A stretch of 64,000 bases of DNA from Cordylochernes scorpioides (taxonomy: Eukaryota > Arthropoda > Arachnida > Pseudoscorpiones > Chernetidae): the NCBI GenBank assembly GCA_030710605.1, contig CP092870.1, positions 97,616,592 through 97,680,591 of the forward strand. Direction: 5' to 3'. This document shows positions 5,810-56,988 of this stretch, in pieces (the first letter of the stretch is position 1; the number at the start of each line of letters is the position of its first letter). Both the position numbers and the translations under genes were made by a program. Below the pieces are notes generated by a model that worked only from the letters and a program-made list of their open reading frames with translations, had not been told where the DNA came from and made no database searches.

Positions 5810-5882
<73 letters not shown>
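5810..5882 (+). repeat. (GA)n microsatellite
   Basis: About 36 uninterrupted GA dinucleotides. Confidence 0.98.
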
Positions 5883-5885
<3 letters not shown>

Positions 5886-34609: not shown

Positions 34610-34807
34610 CGTATAAAAAAATAAGGTATATATTATAATCACTATAAAAGGAAGTTCGAAAAAATGCAATATAACAGCAGTATGGTAGATTAAACTGGCG
34701 AAACCGCTGGGAGGGTTCACCACTGATAAGCCAGGCCTTCCCATTAATTTTCACATTGCAGTAAGGACAGTAGAAATTGTATATTTTTAAAAAAGAATCA
34801 CACGCGT
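34610..34807 (-). repeat. Family M repeat, split by the LTR element
   Basis: GTAGATTAAACTGGCGAAACC, GGGTTCACCACTGATAAGCC, CAGTAAGGACAGTAGAAATT and ATCACACGCGT lead up to the LTR insertion. The end continues at 37386 as CGCGTCTATAATAGTTTCGA, as in uninterrupted copies. Confidence 0.8.
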
Positions 34808-34980
34808 TGTGATGTAATTGTACATATTCAGATGTAAATATGTAAATATGGTTTTGCATATAGACGCTCGAGTTAGGTTATAAATAGAGATAATTGTAAG
34901 TTGTCAGTTAGTTAGTAAGTTCCGTTCTTAAATAAAGAAGTGTTCACCATCGTAGCACGATTCCTTGAAGAAACTAAACA
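34808..34980 (+). repeat. 5' LTR
   Basis: 173 bp, apparently identical to the 3' LTR by eye. TTATAAATA (about 34878) could be the TATA region, and TTAAATAAAG (about 34929) the poly(A) signal. Confidence 0.92.
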
Positions 34981-35073
34981 TGGTGGCAGCGTAAAAGCGG
35001 TATAAGCGTAAAAGCAATTTTCAAAATTATAAAGTTGAAATATAAGAATTTTTTTTTAAGAAAAGGAAAAAAA

Positions 35074-35946
35074 ATGGCTAATTATATACAAGTAGCTGCT
35101 CCAGAAGGATTCAATTTCGGCAAACCTAATGAATGGCCGATATGGTTCAAAAGATTTCAAAGATACAGAATCGCTTCAGAACTTTCAGAGAAAAGTGAAA
35201 GTGAGCAAGTAAATGCTCTGATTTACATAATGGGCGATAAAGCAGAAGAAATCTTGATCTTATTTAATTTAAGTGAAGCGCAAATTAATGACTATAAACT
35301 AGTGGTGTCCAAATTCCAGGACTATTTCATAGGAAAAAGAAATTTTATTTATGAAAGAGCAAAATTCAATAGAAGAAGCCAAGGGGAGATGGAACCTGTA
35401 GAGGAATTCATAACCAATCTCTATGTGCTGGCAGAAACCTGCAGCTATGGTATCTTAAAAGAAGAGATGATCAGGGATCGCTTGGTAGTTGGAGTGAAAA
35501 ACCTTAATCTTTCTGAGAAATTACAGTTGGAATCGGAACTTACCTTGGAGAAGGCAATCCAGATAGTGCGCCAATCAGAAAGTGTAAAAAATCAACAAAA
35601 AGAAATTAGGCAAGACACTGAAGATCGGAACGTAGATGCGATTGACAGGAAAGGAAGCCGAAATGGCACAAATGTTCGCAAAACAAGAATGAAAGGTACA
35701 AAAACGTACAATTCTAATTTTCCAAAGAATCCTCAAGGTTGTTCTTCTTATGAGAAACGTAAATGTTTCCGATGTGGATATTACCAAGGACATTCGAAAG
35801 AACAATGTCCTGCTAAGGATGCTATTTGCAACAAGTGCAGAAAGAAAGGTCATTTTGCCAAGGTTTGTCACACAAAAACCGTACAAGAAGTATCAAGCTC
35901 CCAAAATGATGTATTCATTGGAATAGTGGAAATAGTACAAAAGTAA
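35074..35946 (+). CDS. gag: Gypsy Gag polyprotein, complete
   Basis: 290 residues from the ATG at 35074. The frame is open a further 13 codons upstream, but MANYIQVAAPEG matches the usual N terminus of arthropod Gypsy Gags, so this start is chosen. Residues 10-170 form the capsid-like retrotransposon-gag region (WPIWFKRFQRYR near 22; ALIYIMGDKAEE near 48). Two zinc knuckles follow: CFRCG...H...C at 231-245 (one residue longer than CX2CX4HX4C) and CNKCRKKGHFAKVC at 252-265, which bind RNA for packaging. No frameshift or stop interrupts it. The stop lies inside the first unit of the tandem array, and the protease expected next is absent. Confidence 0.9.
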   Translation: MANYIQVAAPEGFNFGKPNEWPIWFKRFQRYRIASELSEKSESEQVNALIYIMGDKAEEILILFNLSEAQINDYKLVVSKFQDYFIGKRNFIYERAKFNRRSQGEMEPVEEFITNLYVLAETCSYGILKEEMIRDRLVVGVKNLNLSEKLQLESELTLEKAIQIVRQSESVKNQQKEIRQDTEDRNVDAIDRKGSRNGTNVRKTRMKGTKTYNSNFPKNPQGCSSYEKRKCFRCGYYQGHSKEQCPAKDAICNKCRKKGHFAKVCHTKTVQEVSSSQNDVFIGIVEIVQK

Positions 35947-36818
35947 AATTGTACAAAAGTAAAATTGTACAAAAGTGTAATTGTACAAAAGTGAAATAGT
36001 ACAAAAGTAAAATTGTACAAAAGTAAAATTGTACAAAAGTGAAATAGTACAAAAGTGTAATTGTACAAAAGTGTAATTGTACAAAAGTGTAATTGTACAA
36101 AAGTGTAATTGTACAAAAGTGAAATAGTACAAAAGTGGAAATTGTACAAAAGTGTAATTGTACAAAAGTGAAATAGTACAAAAGTAAAATTGTACAAAAG
36201 TAAAATTGTACAAAAGTAAAATTGTACAAAAGTGAAATAGTACAAAAGTAAAATTGTACAAAAGTGTAATTGTACAAAAGTGTAATTGTACAAAAGTGTA
36301 ATTGTACAAAAGTAAAATTGTACAAAAGTAAAATTGTACAAAAGTGTAATTGTACAAAAGTGTAATTGTACAAAAGTGTAATTGTACAAAAGTGTAATTG
36401 TACAAAAGTAAAATTGTACAAAAGTGTAATTGTACAAAAGTGTAATTGTACAAAAGTGAAATAGTACAAAAGTAAAATTGTACAAAAGTAAAATTGTACA
36501 AAAGTAAAATTGTACAAAAGTGAAATAGTACAAAAGTAAAATTGTACAAAAGTGTAATTGTACAAAAGTAAAAATTGTAACAAGTAAAAATTGTACAAAA
36601 GTGAAATAGTACAAAAGTAAAATAGTACAAAAGTAAAATTGTACAAAAGTAAAATTGTACAAAAGTAAAATTGTACAAAAGTGAAATAGTACAAAAGTAA
36701 AATTGTACAAAAATGTAATTGTACAAAAGTGTAATTGTACAAAAGTGTAATTGTACAAAAGTGTAATTGTACAAAAGTAAAATTGTACAAAAGTGAAATA
36801 GTACAAAAGTAAAATTGT
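35933..36818 (+). repeat. 16-bp minisatellite inside the LTR element, about 55 copies
   Basis: Three main unit types: GTACAAAAGTAAAATT (1), GTACAAAAGTGTAATT (2) and GTACAAAAGTGAAATA (3). Most junctions make the palindrome TTGTACAA. The order 1-1-1-3-1-2 recurs about three times, a higher-order structure. Two units near 36565-36595 carry 1-bp changes. Because 16 is not a multiple of 3, three units encode the same 16-residue repeat in every antisense frame, which explains the three long minus-strand frames; they are not genes. Confidence 0.97.
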
Positions 36819-36939
36819 GGTTCCTGTGGGATTCCTTTGAAGGTGCGGAGTGACAATTCGGATCACTATGGCAAATCAAGGGAAGCTTGTCCTGCTCCCT
36901 CTATAATAGGTGTTGTGAATGCTATTGATGAAAAGGAGT

Positions 36940-37190
36940 AAAGGATTCTGAAGCGAAGCCAAAGGGCGACGGATTAAAGGATTCTGATGCGAAGCCTAAG
37001 GGCGCAGGAGTACGAGAACTGCCTCCATTGGAAGTAAATGATCGAGTTTGGCTGACGGACCTTAACGGGGAGCCATATGTAAATTACCCAGAGGCCAACC
37101 CACACTTCGGATGCTGCTGCGGATGTGGCCGATTCATCAACATCTCCTGGAAGAACAGTTCGTCCGCCCAGACGTTTTGGAGAGGACTAG
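36940..37190 (+). pseudogene. Pol remnant: C-terminal tail of Gypsy integrase
   Basis: LPPLEVNDRVWLTDLNGEP (from about 37020) matches the region after the integrase core. After a frame change the next frame ends SPGRTVRPPRRFGED and a stop at 37188-37190, the usual end of arthropod Gypsy Pol. Protease, reverse transcriptase, RNase H and the integrase core are all missing. 36940-37010 has two similar blocks around AAAGGATTCTGA-GCGAAGCC, a local duplication. Confidence 0.75.
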
Positions 37191-37212
37191 AGCTAATCTC
37201 TAAGAGGGGAGA

Positions 37213-37385
37213 TGTGATGTAATTGTACATATTCAGATGTAAATATGTAAATATGGTTTTGCATATAGACGCTCGAGTTAGGTTATAAATAGAGATAATT
37301 GTAAGTTGTCAGTTAGTTAGTAAGTTCCGTTCTTAAATAAAGAAGTGTTCACCATCGTAGCACGATTCCTTGAAGAAACTAAACA
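37213..37385 (+). repeat. 3' LTR
   Basis: 173 bp, TGTGATG...AAACA; matches the 5' LTR and is followed by the TSD CGCGT. Confidence 0.92.
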
Positions 37386-37539
37386 CGCGTCTATAATAGT
37401 TTCGAATTTTGATAATGATATATATTGGAAAATGATTTTAAAGTTTTGGAAAATATATCTATGATTTTTTTATTTATTTTTGACCGCTGACTATAGAGTT
37501 TTTGTTTGTCAAGCAACCATGATATATAACTTTCCTTCT

Positions 37540-44534: not shown

Positions 44535-45013
44535 TTTTATGAAAGAGGTACAATATAAGGTCGTCTCGAAAGTTCGTGTTTTTCATAAAACGTTGTTTTT
44601 TTTTCTTATTACTTGGCGAATAATATTATTACGGCGAATATACATAATAATACATAATGCAATTACTTTATACATAATACAAATACATTATTTAAACAAG
44701 GTAAAATCCTCTGGAGTAACTTGGTAAAGAGAGAACATTCAAAGACAAAGAGGATAAGTTTCTTTTTATGAACATGCGTTCGAGCTTTCGGGCACAATGT
44801 CGCCCTTCAACAGGAATAAAACTACACAAAGAATCAAGATACGTCTATATATATACAGGTGATTAGCATAAACAAGAAAACTATTATTTTTTAGAGAGAT
44901 AAAATTTAAGTTTTATGTGTGATATACAAATCAGGTAATAGGAGAAATGTGATTATGCTAATATATGGTTTAATCTGCTAGTTAAAGAATCTATAGGTTG
45001 TTGTGTGAACAGC

Positions 45014-45730
45014 TTATGTAAATATTTCATTATAAAGTTCCGGAATCTCAATGTGCCTATTGATGCTATTATATTTCAGAGATAGCAGCGCCTCGACAAC
45101 CAATCTTTTATATTTATGTTGAATGTTAGAAAAATGCGAACGGGGTTCTATTGTATTAAAAGTATGTCCTGTGTTTGAAATGTGTTGGGCTATGAGGGAT
45201 CTAGGGTCATTATTTCTGATATTTCGGATATGTTCATCAATTCTGTCTTTTATGTGTCTACCAGTTTCTCCTATGTATAGGCTAGAGCAATTATTACATT
45301 TTAATGAGTAGACTGCATTATTGAAGTGTATGGGTTTTAGGGGGAAACTGTTTTTGGTGATAGGGTTTCTAAGTAATGTGCCTAAATTAGGAGTATTGGA
45401 GTAGAAGGTGCGGATACCAAAGTTTTTTAGATAATTGGATATGTTGAGGCTCTGAGGGGAAAAAGGAATAGTGCAAATAGATTTATAACTATGATTAACG
45501 GCTGTTTGTAAAGGGTTATGAAAGTGTCTCAAAATAAAGTTTTTTGGGTAGCCCAATGATAATAAATGTGATAATATGGTATTTGTTTCCTGCTGTTTTG
45601 ATGTTTCTGTGGTACAATGAGTGAATATGCGTTTAGTTAATGTTTTGACTGTATTAATTTTATGGCTAAGTGGGCAGTACGAAGAAAATGTATGTATGAT
45701 GGAAAAAATGACGGTTTGTAATAAACGCTT
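45014..45730 (-). pseudogene. Penelope-like RT tail plus GIY-YIG endonuclease, left arm
   Basis: The 180-codon frame 45556-45014 is the C terminus. Upstream the same frame stays open through TLTKRIFTHCTTETSKQ into the reverse-transcriptase thumb, then shifts near the palindrome centre. Endonuclease motifs: VYSLKC (82-87), CNNC (87-90), LYIGETGR (93-100), IKDRIDEH (102-109), H125/H131, and E155 in VVEALL. The N-terminal reverse transcriptase is missing, so this copy cannot act alone, but the endonuclease domain is unbroken. Confidence 0.85.
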
Positions 45731-45749
45731 GTGGTGTATAATAGATACA

Positions 45750-46467
45750 CCACAAGCGTTTATTACAAACCGTCATTTTTTCCATCATACATTTTTCTTC
45801 GTACTGCCCACTTAGCCATAAAATTAATACAGTCAAAACATTAACTAAACGCATATTCACTCATTGTACCACAGAAACATCAAAACAGCAGGAAACAAAT
45901 ACCATATTATCACATTTATTATCATTGGGCTACCCAAAAAAATTTATTTTGAGACACTTTCATAACCCTTTACAAACATCCGTTAATCATAGTTATAAAT
46001 CTATTTGCACTATTCCTTTTTCCCCTCAGAGCCTCAACATATCCAATTATCTAAAAAACTTTGGTATCCGCACCTTCTACTCCAATACTCCTAATTTAGG
46101 CACATTACTTAGAAACCCTATCACCAAAAACAGTTTCCCCCTAAAACCCATACACTTCAATAATGCAGTCTACTCATTAAAATGTAATAATTGCTCTAGC
46201 CTATACATAGGAGAAACTGGTAGACACATAAAAGACAGAATTGATGAACATATCCGAAATATCAGAAATAATGACCCTAGATCCCTCATAGCCCAACACA
46301 TTTCAAACACAGGACATACTTTTAATACAATAGAACCCCGTTCGCATTTTTCTAACATTCAGCATAAATATAAAAGATTGGTTGTCGAGGCGCTGCTATC
46401 TCTGAAATATAATGGCATCAATAGGCACATTGAGATTCCGGAACTTTATAATGAAATATTTACATAA
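45750..46467 (+). pseudogene. Penelope-like RT tail plus GIY-YIG endonuclease, right arm
   Basis: Mirror copy. Its 180-codon frame 45925-46467 differs from the left arm at only three residues (6, 19 and 164). All endonuclease motifs are kept. The 3' UTR continues to 46757 and contains the Penelope-type hairpin at 46668-46697. Confidence 0.85.
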
Positions 46468-47004
46468 GCTGTTCACACAACAACCTATAGATTCTTTAAC
46501 TAGCAGATTAAACCATATATTAGCATAATCACATTTCTCCTATTACCTGATTTGTATATCACACATAAAACTTAAATTTTATCTCTCTAAAAAATAATAG
46601 TTTTCTTGTTTATGCTAATCACCTGTATATATATAGACGTATCTTGATTCTTTGTGTAGTTTTATTCCTGTTGAAGGGCGACATTGTGCCCGAAAGCTCG
46701 AACGCATGTTCATAAAAAGAAACTTATCCTCTTTGTCTTTGAATGTTCTCTCTTTACAAATACATTATACATAACGGCAAATAATATTGGTATTTCAATT
46801 TTTTTGGAAGTGTTTACGAAATTTTGAAGGAGAACCTTGTAAAATGAGAGTTTCAATCTCAACTTCTCTGCGCAGATGGGGACCCTCTGGCGATCTTCCA
46901 CCAAGTTCTGCAGCGGTGGCTGCGGCCGCATGTACATTGTACATAGTATACTTTTTATGTCTATTTTTCGTTTTTATTATCATTTTCATTATTATGGTGC
47001 ATTA

Positions 47005-52114: not shown

Positions 52115-53440
52115 TTTTTCCTTAACACACTGAACATGCGTCGGACCTGTAGGCTGCTGTTGGGTTCTTCGCTGCCTGGTGTATAGGAGCTCCATTTATG
52201 CTTTCTTTCTCCCTGTGGTGAATCTATATAAGACCGGGGTTCTTAATAAAGCTGTGTGTTTTCCTTTAACACTGGACATGTGTCGGACCTCTAGGCTGCT
52301 GTTGGGTTCTTCGCTGCCTGGTGTATAGGAACTCTATTTATGTTCTCTTTCTCCCTGTGGTGAATCTATATAAGACCGGGGTTCTTAATAAAGCTGTGTG
52401 TTTTCCTTTAACACTGGACATGTGTCGGACCTGTAGGCTGCTGTTGGGTTCTTCGCTGCCTGGTGTATAGGAACTCCATTTATGTTCTCTTTCTCCCTGT
52501 GGTGAATCTATATAAGACCGGGGTTCTTAATAAAGCTGTGTGTGTTTTCCTTTAATACACTGGACATGGCGTCAGACCTGTAGGCTGCTGTTGGGTTCTT
52601 CGCTGCCTGGTGTATAGGAACTCTATCTGTGCTTCCTTTCTCCCTGTGGTGAATCTATATAAGACAGGTGGTCCTAATAAAGCTGTGTGTGTTTTTCCTT
52701 TAACACTGGACATGCGTCGGACCTGTAGGCTGCTGTTGGGTTCTTCGCTGCCTGGTGTATAGGAGCTCCATTTATGTTTTCTTTCTCCCTGTGGTGAATC
52801 TATATAAGACCGGGGTTCTTAATAAAGCTGTGTGTGTTTTTCCTTTAACAGACTGAACATGCGTCGAACTTGTAGGCTGCTGTTGGGTTCTTCGCTGCCT
52901 GGAGTATAGGAGCTCCATTTATGCTTCCTTTCTCCCTGTGGTGAATCTGTATAATACCGGGGTTCTTAATAAAGCTGTGTGTATTTTTCCTTTAACAGAC
53001 TGAACATGCGTCGAACTTGTAGGCTGCTGTTGGGTTCTTCGCTGCCTGGAGTATAGGAGCTCCATTTATGCTTCCTTTCTCCCTGTGGTGAATCTGTATA
53101 AGACCGGGGTTCTTAATAAAGCTGTGTGTATTTTTCCTTTAACACACTGAACATGCGTCGAACTTGTAGGCTGCTGTTGGGTTCTTCGCTGCCTGGAGTA
53201 TAGGAGCTCCATTTATGCTTCCTTTCTCCCTGTGGTGAATCTGTATAAGACCGGGGTTCTTAATAAAGCTGTGTGTATTTTTCCTTTAACACACTGAACA
53301 TGCGTCGAACTTGTAGGCTGCTGTTGGGTTCTTCGCTGCCTGGAGTATAGGAGCTCCATTTATGCTTCCTTTCTCCCTGTGGTGAATCTGTATAAGACCG
53401 GGGTTCTTAATAAAGCTGTGTGTGTGTTTTTTCTTTAACA
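52115..53440 (+). repeat. Nine tandem copies of a 141-147 bp unit with AATAAA
   Basis: Anchor TAGGCTGCTGTTGGGTTCTT occurs nine times at intervals of 141, 143, 146, 146, 146, 147, 147 and 147 bp. Each unit ends CCGGGGTTCTTAATAAAGC then TGTGTG, like a LINE 3' tail. Units 1-5 mostly read CGGACCTG and units 6-9 read CGAACTTG at the same site, so the array grew in at least two steps. Confidence 0.97.
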
Positions 53441-54665: not shown

Positions 54666-55445
54666 AAATTTTATTATTTTTTAATCATTTGGTCTATGCC
54701 AAGTTTTATGATATTCCACCAGTTCCTTCTGAGTTTAGTATTTTCTTTGTGAACTACTGGATATGTATTTGTAGAAAACATCTCTGAAATAGTTACGGGT
54801 TTTCGATAATCTCGAGGCAAAAGCATGTGTAGATTCCGAAATATATATAAAGTAGGTACATATGTGGACTGAACATACAGGGGCAGGTAGAAATAAAATA
54901 AAGAAAGAAATCCAGTAGACAGTTGGTGACATGTGGCCACGTCACTTGGCGACGTACCGCTGGGACAGTAATCTCATCAGACACTAATTGGGCGGGAGGA
55001 AAACAATGCTAATTAGCTACACTGAAAGATTAATTGGAATTGGGAGGAATTAGTTAGCAATTAGCAGGAGATTTGGCTAGTGTTGGGGAGGGTGTACAAG
55101 CTGGTAGGCTTACAACATTCGACGCGACCTACCACGGTCTTGCTATGGGGAGAGAGAGCTTTGTGCGTTGATACCTTGTATTCTCGGGAGAATAGCGCAC
55201 TCATTTGCATAACCAGCGCGTGGGATGACACCATATGTAAAAACAGCTCTTTTTTTTAAAGATGTACGGTGTCGCTTAAGACCTACTTGATGAGGTCATT
55301 AGTGTTTAGGAAGACGTCTAATATATACACATATATATGTTATTTTAAAATATTATTTTATTTAAAATTATATTTCATAGATTCAAATACTCTGTTAAAT
55401 CGCCGCCAGAGGTCACGCTTCCCCTATAAAAACTATTGTTGTTGT
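54666..55445. other. Unassigned stretch
   Basis: Three overlapping minus-strand frames (54674-54984) are chance. 55080-55210 is GC-richer without a motif. Confidence 0.35.
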
Positions 55446-56988
55446 TTCCCGATGGACATTACACGGTTCGCTCTTGACATGAATCCTGCCAAGAAGAAAA
55501 AGAAGGCCTACAAGCCTACAACCCGCATCGTGAACGTCGCCGACCTGGAGAGGGAAGATGAGATGGTGATCTCACGCAACTGCAGCATCCTGAGCTCCAT
55601 TGGCCATCCTGCCCTGAAATCCCTGCATGAGGACCTGATCCGCTACATCGCCTCGCGGACTGAAATGATCAAGGCCCTCGCTACCAATGTAGAGAACCTC
55701 ACTGACACCCTCGAGTCCTTCGCAGAGTTGGACGAAATTGAGGAGGCCAACAAGCCCAAGACTGCTTGCCGCGGCACTCAAACCTGCCCTGCTCCTTCCT
55801 GCAATGAAACCAGCTCCCAGACTGACCCAATCAAGCCCGCCACTCCTGCTCCTGCTGCTCTCCCTGCCAAGAAGCCTGCCTCCTCCCTGCCTGCTCCTGC
55901 TCCAACCAAAAGGAAGCAGTCTGAAGCTCCCAACCCGCCTGCAAAGAGGACAAACCTGAATGGTCCTTCAAAACCTGTGCCTTCCCACGTCTCCAAGCCT
56001 GCGGCCGCCCAAGTGATCCTTCATGGAGAAAAATCGGCGGCCCACACAGTGGTCATCTCAGATGACCCACAGGCTGACCCAAGGGAGATGCTGAAAACAG
56101 TCCGCGCTGCTCACACTCTCCCCCAAGGCGTTTGGGCCTCCCTGCGCACCAAGGGGAAGCTGGTCCTCCATTCCAGCAATCCTGACACCATCCCTGAGGT
56201 TACAACCTCCCTGGCCAGCAAGTTGAATGGAATGAAGGTCCGCCAGCAGAAGGAGATCCTGCCACGGATCTGCCTCTTCAAAGTGGATGAGGAGACATCC
56301 AACTCCACAATTGAGGAGACCTTCCTGGAAACCGCTGCTGTTAGAAAACTTCCTGGGGACAAGGTGGTGCGCGTGGCGCACCGTTCTGCACCCAGAAACG
56401 GGACCTGCACCGCCTTCATCGAGGTGGACCTCAAGACCTTTAGAGCCCTGGGCGTTCGCGGGAGGATCGTGGTGGATGGAGTAATCCTCAACTTCGAGGA
56501 GTCCATCCGCGCCCGCGTCTGCTTCCGCTGTTGTGGCTTCGGCCACAACTCTGCCCAATGCACCAGAGCTCCTAAGTGCTTCCACTGCGGTGAAGACGGC
56601 CATGAAGGCCGAACCTGCCCATTCATTGCTGACCAGCGCACCTCCAAATGTGCCAACTGCTGCTCCCAGGGCCTTCCTGACAAGCACGAGGCGAGAGCCT
56701 CAAGCTGCCCCATCCTGAAGTCTAGGGCCCTCAAGTTCTAGGCTTCAAGGACCTTCTGCCTCCATTTCCATCTGCCACTTCTCCTGGATTCCTGGCCTAT
56801 TCAACGCACCCGCCTCACTGCACCCTGGCGCTATTCCCCTGCTTGCCCAACGTTTCCACCACCCCTGCGAGACATCTCCTGCTTCCACATCCTAGGGTCC
56901 CTTGCCACCTGACATCGATTTTGGGCTCAAAAATCATAACTTTTGGTTAGTAGCCCGTAAATAAAGATATTTTCTCTTCCCGATGGAC
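55446..56988 (+). mobile_element. ORF1-only LINE with 12-bp TSD
   Basis: The element is 55458-56976 (1,519 bp). TTCCCGATGGAC at 55446-55457 and 56977-56988 is a perfect 12-bp duplication. It holds a 21-bp leader, one intact ORF1, a 235-bp 3' UTR with the GGGCT/AGCCC hairpin and AATAAAGATATTTTCTCT, and no ORF2. It is GC-rich in AT-rich flanks. Confidence 0.82.
55479..56741 (+). CDS. Non-LTR retrotransposon ORF1 (Gag-like nucleic-acid-binding protein)
   Basis: 420 residues from the ATG at 55479. The frame is open upstream to 55269, and an ATG at 55452 exists, but both lie in flanking DNA or the TSD, so 55479 is the element's own start. Layout: basic N terminus (MNPAKKKKKAYKP), helical segment about 45-105, Pro/Ala-rich linker about 115-190, a globular middle about 210-345 as in R1/Jockey/I ORF1, and zinc knuckles CFRCCGFGHNSAQC (348-361), CFHCGEDGHEGRTC (367-380) and a longer CANCC...H...C (391-410). 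The protein coats element RNA. No stop or frameshift; G/C-ending codons dominate. Confidence 0.85.
   Translation: MNPAKKKKKAYKPTTRIVNVADLEREDEMVISRNCSILSSIGHPALKSLHEDLIRYIASRTEMIKALATNVENLTDTLESFAELDEIEEANKPKTACRGTQTCPAPSCNETSSQTDPIKPATPAPAALPAKKPASSLPAPAPTKRKQSEAPNPPAKRTNLNGPSKPVPSHVSKPAAAQVILHGEKSAAHTVVISDDPQADPREMLKTVRAAHTLPQGVWASLRTKGKLVLHSSNPDTIPEVTTSLASKLNGMKVRQQKEILPRICLFKVDEETSNSTIEETFLETAAVRKLPGDKVVRVAHRSAPRNGTCTAFIEVDLKTFRALGVRGRIVVDGVILNFEESIRARVCFRCCGFGHNSAQCTRAPKCFHCGEDGHEGRTCPFIADQRTSKCANCCSQGLPDKHEARASSCPILKSRALKF

Follow-up and report, generated by a model that had tools for sequence, protein, structure and literature searches.

Structure of the Element

The 64,000-nucleotide stretch of the pseudoscorpion Cordylochernes scorpioides analyzed here (the window; contig CP092870.1 of assembly GCA_030710605.1, positions 97,616,592 to 97,680,591 of the forward strand) contains a long terminal repeat (LTR) retrotransposon in which a 16-bp minisatellite stands in place of pol. 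The element proper extends from 34808 to 37385 and its LTRs have TG..CA ends; the interval of 34803 to 37390 given by the original prediction is the element plus its target duplication, because CGCGT lies on both sides (34803-34807, repeated directly after the 3′ LTR at 37386-37390). The 5′ LTR (34808-34980) and the 3′ LTR (37213-37385) are each 173 bp long and match exactly. Directly 3′ of the former lies a putative primer-binding site, TGGTGGCAGCG (34981-34999), which likewise follows the LTR of L086, a pol-bearing sibling, and directly 5′ of the latter lies the polypurine tract AAGAGGGGAGA (37202-37212). The terminal repeats, the primer-site-like sequence, the purine tract and the target duplication are together those by which an LTR retrotransposon is recognized. 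The gag open reading frame (ORF) is intact, encodes 290 aa from its ATG (35074-35946) and includes two CCHC zinc knuckles (35761-35871, residues 230-266); its final codons lie inside the minisatellite. Among PDB entries, a nucleocapsid protein matches its product best (E 0.0066). Pfam returned no gag model for it, and an AlphaFold2 model made from the single sequence (mean pLDDT 37.5) was not used. The intact gag, identical LTRs, perfect duplication and priming sites that had been predicted are thus present. These features and all others described for the element are on the forward strand, except the target duplication, which has no strand assigned.

The minisatellite, or array, occupies 35929-36818 and consists, by tandem-repeat detection, of 55.5 units with the core TTGTACAAAAGT (period 16, 91% matches, score 1340), in agreement with the predicted tandem repeat in place of pol. 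A two-unit pattern allowing up to 3 mismatches matches the window 51 times, vs 0.01 matches expected in shuffled sequence. The exact core GTACAAAAGT occurs 53 times in the array, and three unit types make up 48 of the 52 spacings. Downstream of the array, the “integrase tail” of the original prediction does include a scrap of the integrase core, a C-terminal piece and the end of pol, but comparison with pol-bearing siblings reveals a mosaic of scraps rather than a single tail. It comprises an integrase-core remnant of 30 bp (36828-36857, GIPL-VRSDN, 87-90% identity to four pol-bearing siblings), a stretch of 148 bp without a clear match in the pol pieces examined (36858-37005), which contains most of a 36-bp duplication (36935-37006), a 60-bp remnant of the integrase C-terminus (37006-37065, 95-98% identity to the four siblings) whose frame differs from that of its neighbors, and the 3′ end of pol with a 29-bp deletion and the polypurine tract (37070-37212); in the siblings, pol ends in RPPRRFG(D/N)(D/N). 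No origin for 36858-37005 was found among the pol pieces and other family sequences compared. As part of the explanation that we favor, the window copy is probably a young member of a multi-copy, non-autonomous family of Ty3/Gypsy-type LTR retrotransposons.

Related Copies in the Assembly

The 2.62-Gb assembly was searched with several queries, for each of which 40 were scored out of a loose first-look count of candidates; because this count is loose, no copy number is given. The whole element yielded 81 matches from 40 scored of 1134 candidates, and the sequence 3′ of the array (the tail) was scored at 40 of 685. The array is present in 50/50 loci examined from these two queries, a set chosen by likeness to the window element and representing 46 distinct copies (L021, L029, L037, and L048 duplicate L001, L008, L011, and L012). 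The copies sit on many contigs, have different arrays and bear their own target duplications. A single-locus rearrangement or an assembly artefact can hence be dismissed, as can the possibility, raised beforehand, that all other copies carry a normal pol. The non-autonomous lineage that had been proposed, with gag and with an array where pol would stand, is supported; it is, however, one of several forms, the others combining the array with a RING/IBR ORF, with a gag::RING/IBR fusion, or with gag and protease. Array-bearing forms are 1.8-3.0 kb long, and array length differs between copies, with 14-64 exact cores per array and an array split into two runs in L016.

Among the 25 array copies with both LTRs, whose LTR pairs differ at 0-10 of ~173 sites, 24 had both flanks and all 24 show a perfect 5-bp duplication. 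All but one of the 25 contain gag, open to the array in 17; it is broken in L003, L013, L016, and L020, cut and running into the array in L022, and unscored in L004 and L027, where the start-codon rule failed. Perfect 5-bp duplications were also found in 13/13 gag-less, chimeric or cut copies tested, so that pooling both sets, which have two copies in common, gives 35/35 distinct copies, chimeras included.

The LTR with the 5′ leader was scored at 40 of 704 candidates, and 1.3 kb downstream was read for 12 of them. The array was reached in 7/12 (L064, L066, L069, L070, L072, L073, and L074). In L068 the piece read ends still inside a gag::RING/IBR ORF, and in L067 gag and protease with a broken frame are followed by other sequence. 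L063 (by eye) and L065 contain an inverted LTR inside the copy, L065 also an inverted tail, an arrangement suggestive of self-integration or of a switch from one strand to the other. The array was also used as a query by itself; 40 of 171 candidates were scored, and the 3′ side was read in 12 of the 40, which are sites not met in other family searches. All 12 run into the family tail, whole or cut, and an LTR, and the array appears to be confined to this family as far as looked.

Pol-Bearing Siblings

A search for a partner with pol had also been suggested, and array-less siblings with closely related LTRs were found. In L071, a single open frame encodes gag and a protease recognized by eye from its DTGA motif, and the continuation of this copy (L071/L075/L076) matches the Pfam models RVT_1 (5.4e-31), RT_RNaseH_2 (1.6e-32) and Integrase_H2C2 (1.2e-10). 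The L071 copy, 3.4 kb long, jumps from the integrase zinc domain to the end of pol, and its integrase core is missing. A DNA query from the start of the integrase gave 40 scored matches of 191 candidates with 98-100% identity; besides L071, nine of the 40 LTR matches lie, by coordinates, ~3 kb from such a match. Four of these siblings, sized at ~4.38 kb by coordinates and read at both ends, have 3′ LTRs 93.7-94.3% identical to the window LTR (n=4). Their 3′ ends carry the integrase core and C-terminus in 4/4 and the array in 0/4, and their first 1.15 kb is gag without an array. The integrase core of L079 matches rve (E 2.7e-11), and the 3′ frame is open to its end in 3/4, a stop interrupting that of L079. 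The order protease-reverse transcriptase (RT)-RNase H-integrase typical of Ty3/Gypsy pol is therefore found in the array-less siblings, with RT and integrase core read in different copies, and not in the window copy.

A RING/IBR Module and a Candidate Host Donor

Many array copies have no gag or a partial gag and carry instead an ORF of up to ~420 aa. Its C-terminus resembles the RING1 and IBR domains of RBR ubiquitin ligases, with RING1-like cysteines recognizable by eye, and a 63-residue C-terminal piece matches the Pfam IBR model with E 9.3e-5 (22.9 bits, just under the 24.3 cut-off). Pfam gave no match for the whole RBR ORF of the element or for its last 128 residues, and PDB searches with this ORF returned no RBR match. 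The captured ORF ends at the array before RING2, whereas an RBR E3 ligase has RING1, IBR and a catalytic RING2; a working ligase is accordingly not expected.

Searched for IBR, the assembly yielded 106 candidates; 47 exceed the cut-off, and 30 of these lie in open frames of at least 480 aa. These RBR-type ORFs, many of ~500 aa in one open frame, are an expanded host gene family. Twenty cluster at 77.23-77.66 Mb of contig C14, and others lie on C10, C7, C4 and elsewhere. Eight of the 47 places were read. One of them, L089 on contig C7, is a host ORF with a 594-aa frame and an IBR match of E 2.9e-9. The element ORF is 79% identical to it in amino acids over 158 residues, and L073, L035, and L026 are 92-93% identical to it in nucleotides over 417 bp (89-90% for two shorter copies). 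For the other seven places, the best matches to the element ORF reach at most 27% identity, and two have none. The match to L089 indicates that the element ORF would derive from that gene or a close paralogue. L089 matches the RING1-IBR part only, and no donor for the first 260 residues was found among the eight places read. A fragment of a host gene thus seems to have been captured, in sibling copies and not in the window copy, with transfer from host to element and L089 as immediate donor being at most suggested by these alignments.

Chimeras and Module Exchange

In-frame gag::RBR fusions fall into distinct junctions: after gag residue ~105 (L026, L030, L047, and L066), at a shared EWP where both sources contain GAATGGCC (L035, L044, L065, L070, and L072), at ILKE (L042 and L068), and at DVI (L034 and L074). 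Other copies have gag and protease followed by the array (L043 and L064), gag cut after residue ~135 and then the array (L022), or gag and an RBR scrap before the array (L032). Since all 35 testable copies have perfect duplications, the chimeras predate integration, and since the same chimeric junctions occur at different places, chimeras have moved and spread as such. Indels of at least 3 bp inside the ORF, counted with adjoining alignment gaps summed into one event, are multiples of three. The exceptions, all short, are found in L040, L045, and L032, in the last of these at the junction with the array; this point is weakened by the position of several in-frame indels in a repetitive stretch.

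Exchange is also seen between ORFs and tails. When 48 copies were typed at 18 common tail sites and sorted automatically by their left side (26 gag, including L032 despite the RBR scrap after its gag, 14 RBR short, 5 RBR long, 2 protease and 1 cut gag), identical tail haplotypes were found behind gag, protease and both RBR forms, so that modules must have been exchanged before integration. In the 26 array-type gag copies, all four gametes occur in 219/435 pairs of common two-state sites. Over the first 630 nt of gag, differences per site are 0.016-0.043 within the array set, 0.016-0.035 within five siblings and 0.020-0.055 between the two sets. In contrast, the last 219 nt are nearly uniform in the array set (0.009 within vs 0.047 to siblings). 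We read this pattern as a 5′ part exchanged with the pol-bearing pool and a 3′ part more tightly tied to the array. At 0.013, synonymous diversity in the middle part of RBR is one fourth of the value for gag (0.051), which points to a younger origin of RBR.

Properties of the Array

Most array units contain the self-complementary sequence TTGTACAA. The array RNA folds better than shuffled sequence (z = -5.3 for 301 nt), with z = -3.45 to -5.69 in 5/5 array stretches, one from the window and four from other copies. Conservation does not differ between palindrome and spacer (30 and 27 distinct one-step variants, respectively), and a common unit, 218 of 1883, begins with TAGTACAA, a broken palindrome. 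A seed for the array was sought in gag, in the pol pieces and in the RBR ORF, where exact matches do not exceed 10 bases and gapless near-matches reach 11-12 only. In the tail-selected copies the right-hand array junction is nearly constant, this set having been chosen by that very junction. No function of the array emerges from these comparisons: the test of palindrome conservation is negative, as is that of likeness between array and junctions described below.

Origin and Spread of the Family

We consider it likely that these elements form a trans-mobilized Ty3/Gypsy family, shuffled by template switching and carrying a captured fragment of a host gene. Intact LTR ends with duplications, pol-bearing siblings, chimeras made before integration and exchange between ORFs and tails are all observed, and the following course of events would account for them. 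The element would have lost protease, RT, RNase H and integrase while keeping its signals for copying and integration (LTRs, primer site, and purine tract) and, in the window copy, gag. Packaging, which the original prediction mentioned, may be ensured by gag, and the array-less siblings, whose LTRs are nearly identical, could provide the missing enzymes in trans. The array would have arisen in this deleted lineage, changed in length from copy to copy and been passed on to these forms. Template switching between co-packaged RNAs before integration would then join it to the varied 5′ modules that are found: gag, gag with protease, the truncated RBR ORF and the in-frame gag::RBR fusions. During minus-strand synthesis in LTR elements, tail and array are copied before the ORF, so that switching within the array or 5′ of it would combine a new ORF with an old 3′ module, in keeping with the pattern. 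Whether the array is mainly a tract of shared sequence in or around which modules swap, rather than a coding part, we regard as having about an even chance.

Several results weigh against this explanation. Five array breakpoints, compared with all positions of the same ORFs, have no excess likeness to the array, since their score is reached in 7274 of 20000 random placements; the best single one, in L032, is equaled at 13% of positions. Nothing therefore shows that the array draws switching by its sequence. Among the 12 array-selected copies, the array meets the tail at about tail base 229 in 5, and another copy has a deleted tail; the right-hand junction is thus not constant, and the existence of a second one means that the 3′ side of the elements changes too. 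The ratio of nonsynonymous to synonymous changes (pN/pS) in array-type gag is 0.27 (26 copies), a low value that stems from the first 630 nt, which are low in siblings too (0.25 for sibling gag overall); the final 219 nt give 0.92 in the array type, on few changes, and 1.11 in siblings. Selection on gag within the array lineage is hence not demonstrated, and the helper pool may be the source of the constraint seen. In the middle part of RBR, pN/pS is 1.52 (18 copies), with no purifying selection; the frame is free of stop codons in all 18, which 51 random changes would spare with P = 0.08. Lastly, a long ORF is missing from the gag-less copies L040 and L049, and L045 stops early.

The array could be pure filler, inflated by slippage during reverse transcription from a short seed in a deleted copy and then hitch-hiking, with exchange occurring anywhere. 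The unconserved palindrome, the junctions without likeness to the array and an array length that ranges freely between 14 and 64 cores agree with this, as do the gag::RBR junctions, which fall outside the array, and it is a real possibility, although we lean against it. The array is present in all tail-bearing forms examined, and the same 3′ units and tails stand behind different ORFs; exchange between ORF and tail across the span containing the array must therefore be common. At the other extreme, the array could be a functional cis element, a string of hairpins that promotes dimerization, co-packaging and switching through RNA-RNA pairing. The folding beyond shuffles and its company with the tail at 50/50 loci speak for such a role, but a palindrome in the unit is enough to give any repeat serial hairpins, variation is similar in palindrome and spacer, a common unit has a broken palindrome, and the pol-bearing siblings move without an array, so that we find this unlikely. 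In its boldest version, to which we assign a distinctly low probability, the palindromic array would be a cis-acting tract for dimerization, co-packaging and strand transfer that turns the family into a cassette system in which any coding module 5′ of the array (gag, protease or host RBR) could be exchanged and in-frame gag::host fusions are selected, that is, a machine for gene capture and exon shuffling in the host germ line.

Alternatively, copies already inserted could have given rise to the chimeras through gene conversion or ectopic recombination of their DNA, for which numerous and similar copies and the two loci with inverted pieces (L063 and L065) offer some ground. This is very improbable given that the 5-bp duplication is perfect in every one of the 35 testable copies, chimeras among them, and that identical chimeric junctions recur elsewhere, as in L026 and its three counterparts and in L035 and its four. 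Exchange before integration, by template switching between packaged RNAs, remains our preferred explanation of the chimeras.

Other Features of the Window

Elsewhere in the window, an inverted repeat at 44721-46760 has 968-nt arms that are 99% complementary and 104 nt apart; each arm contains an open frame of 240-252 aa, and the forward one matches GIY-YIG (E 7.5e-5), as in Penelope-like elements. A tandem array at 52116-53425 (147-bp unit, 9 copies, 94% matches) is a possible satellite. The 493-aa open frame at 55260-56741 has three CCHC-type knuckles by eye and resembles ORF1 of a non-LTR retrotransposon; it has no Pfam match. A perfect (GA)37 microsatellite lies at 5810-5883.

Comparison with Known Systems

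Capture of host genes and recombination between co-packaged RNAs have usually been argued from single cases. Here, capture, joining to gag, renewed swapping of modules and multiplication of the resulting elements can all be seen in a single family, in numerous insertions that can be dated and that stand beside pol-bearing siblings, so that one genome could suffice to work out in what order and how fast these steps took place. The family also raises the question, pertinent to other elements, of whether an internal minisatellite is ballast or a tract for recombination or packaging. In one open library, judged by titles and the opening of abstracts, no report was recognized of this family, of another family that combines these features, or of an LTR retrotransposon with an RBR ORF.

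Each ingredient has a published counterpart. TR-GAG elements, which move in plants, have LTRs and a single gag ORF alongside a similar element with the full protein set (PMC8704663). Likewise, gag is here the sole intact ORF of the window element, and pol-bearing siblings have similar LTRs; unlike TR-GAG as described there, this Ty3/Gypsy family of an animal has a minisatellite in place of pol and an ORF of host origin that takes the place of gag or is fused to it. PbTRIM of the red harvester ant is a non-autonomous LTR element in an animal (PMC3532108), as is the present one, but TRIMs are small, whereas the form described here is 1.8-3.0 kb long with an ORF and an array. Internal minisatellites that vary from copy to copy are shared with Gmr9/GmOgre of soybean, a Ty3/Gypsy element of >21 kb with an array between coding region and 3′ LTR (PMC3305785), and with Retand (PMC11963269), another minisatellite-bearing Ty3/Gypsy element. 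The Ogre/Retand arrangement, an array between a complete coding region and the 3′ LTR, is not found here: in contrast to Gmr9, the array replaces pol, and the 4/4 pol-bearing 3′ ends read have none.

Host sequence between LTRs is known from Bs1 of maize and from LTR-mediated retroposition, where it is explained by template switching to cellular mRNA (PMC7264820, PMC5408686). The present family shares it in sibling copies, not in the window copy, and differs from the accounts of Bs1 in that the captured piece has been reshuffled with gag, giving no fewer than four different in-frame fusions that are all present in two or more copies. Captured ORF3s added to gag-pol elements are reported for bdelloid LTR elements (PMC5408684), which gain extra ORFs in a similarly modular way; in the pseudoscorpion, the ORF replaces gag or fuses to it, in a non-autonomous element. 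Like ONSEN in Arabidopsis, for which recombination within the family during transposition is reported (PMC5668417), this family behaves as a recombining population; here, unlike in ONSEN, this is deduced from insertions alone and whole coding modules are exchanged. The ingredients are thus known singly, from TR-GAG, Ogre minisatellites, capture by Bs1 and recombination in ONSEN, and it is their combination that appears to be new.

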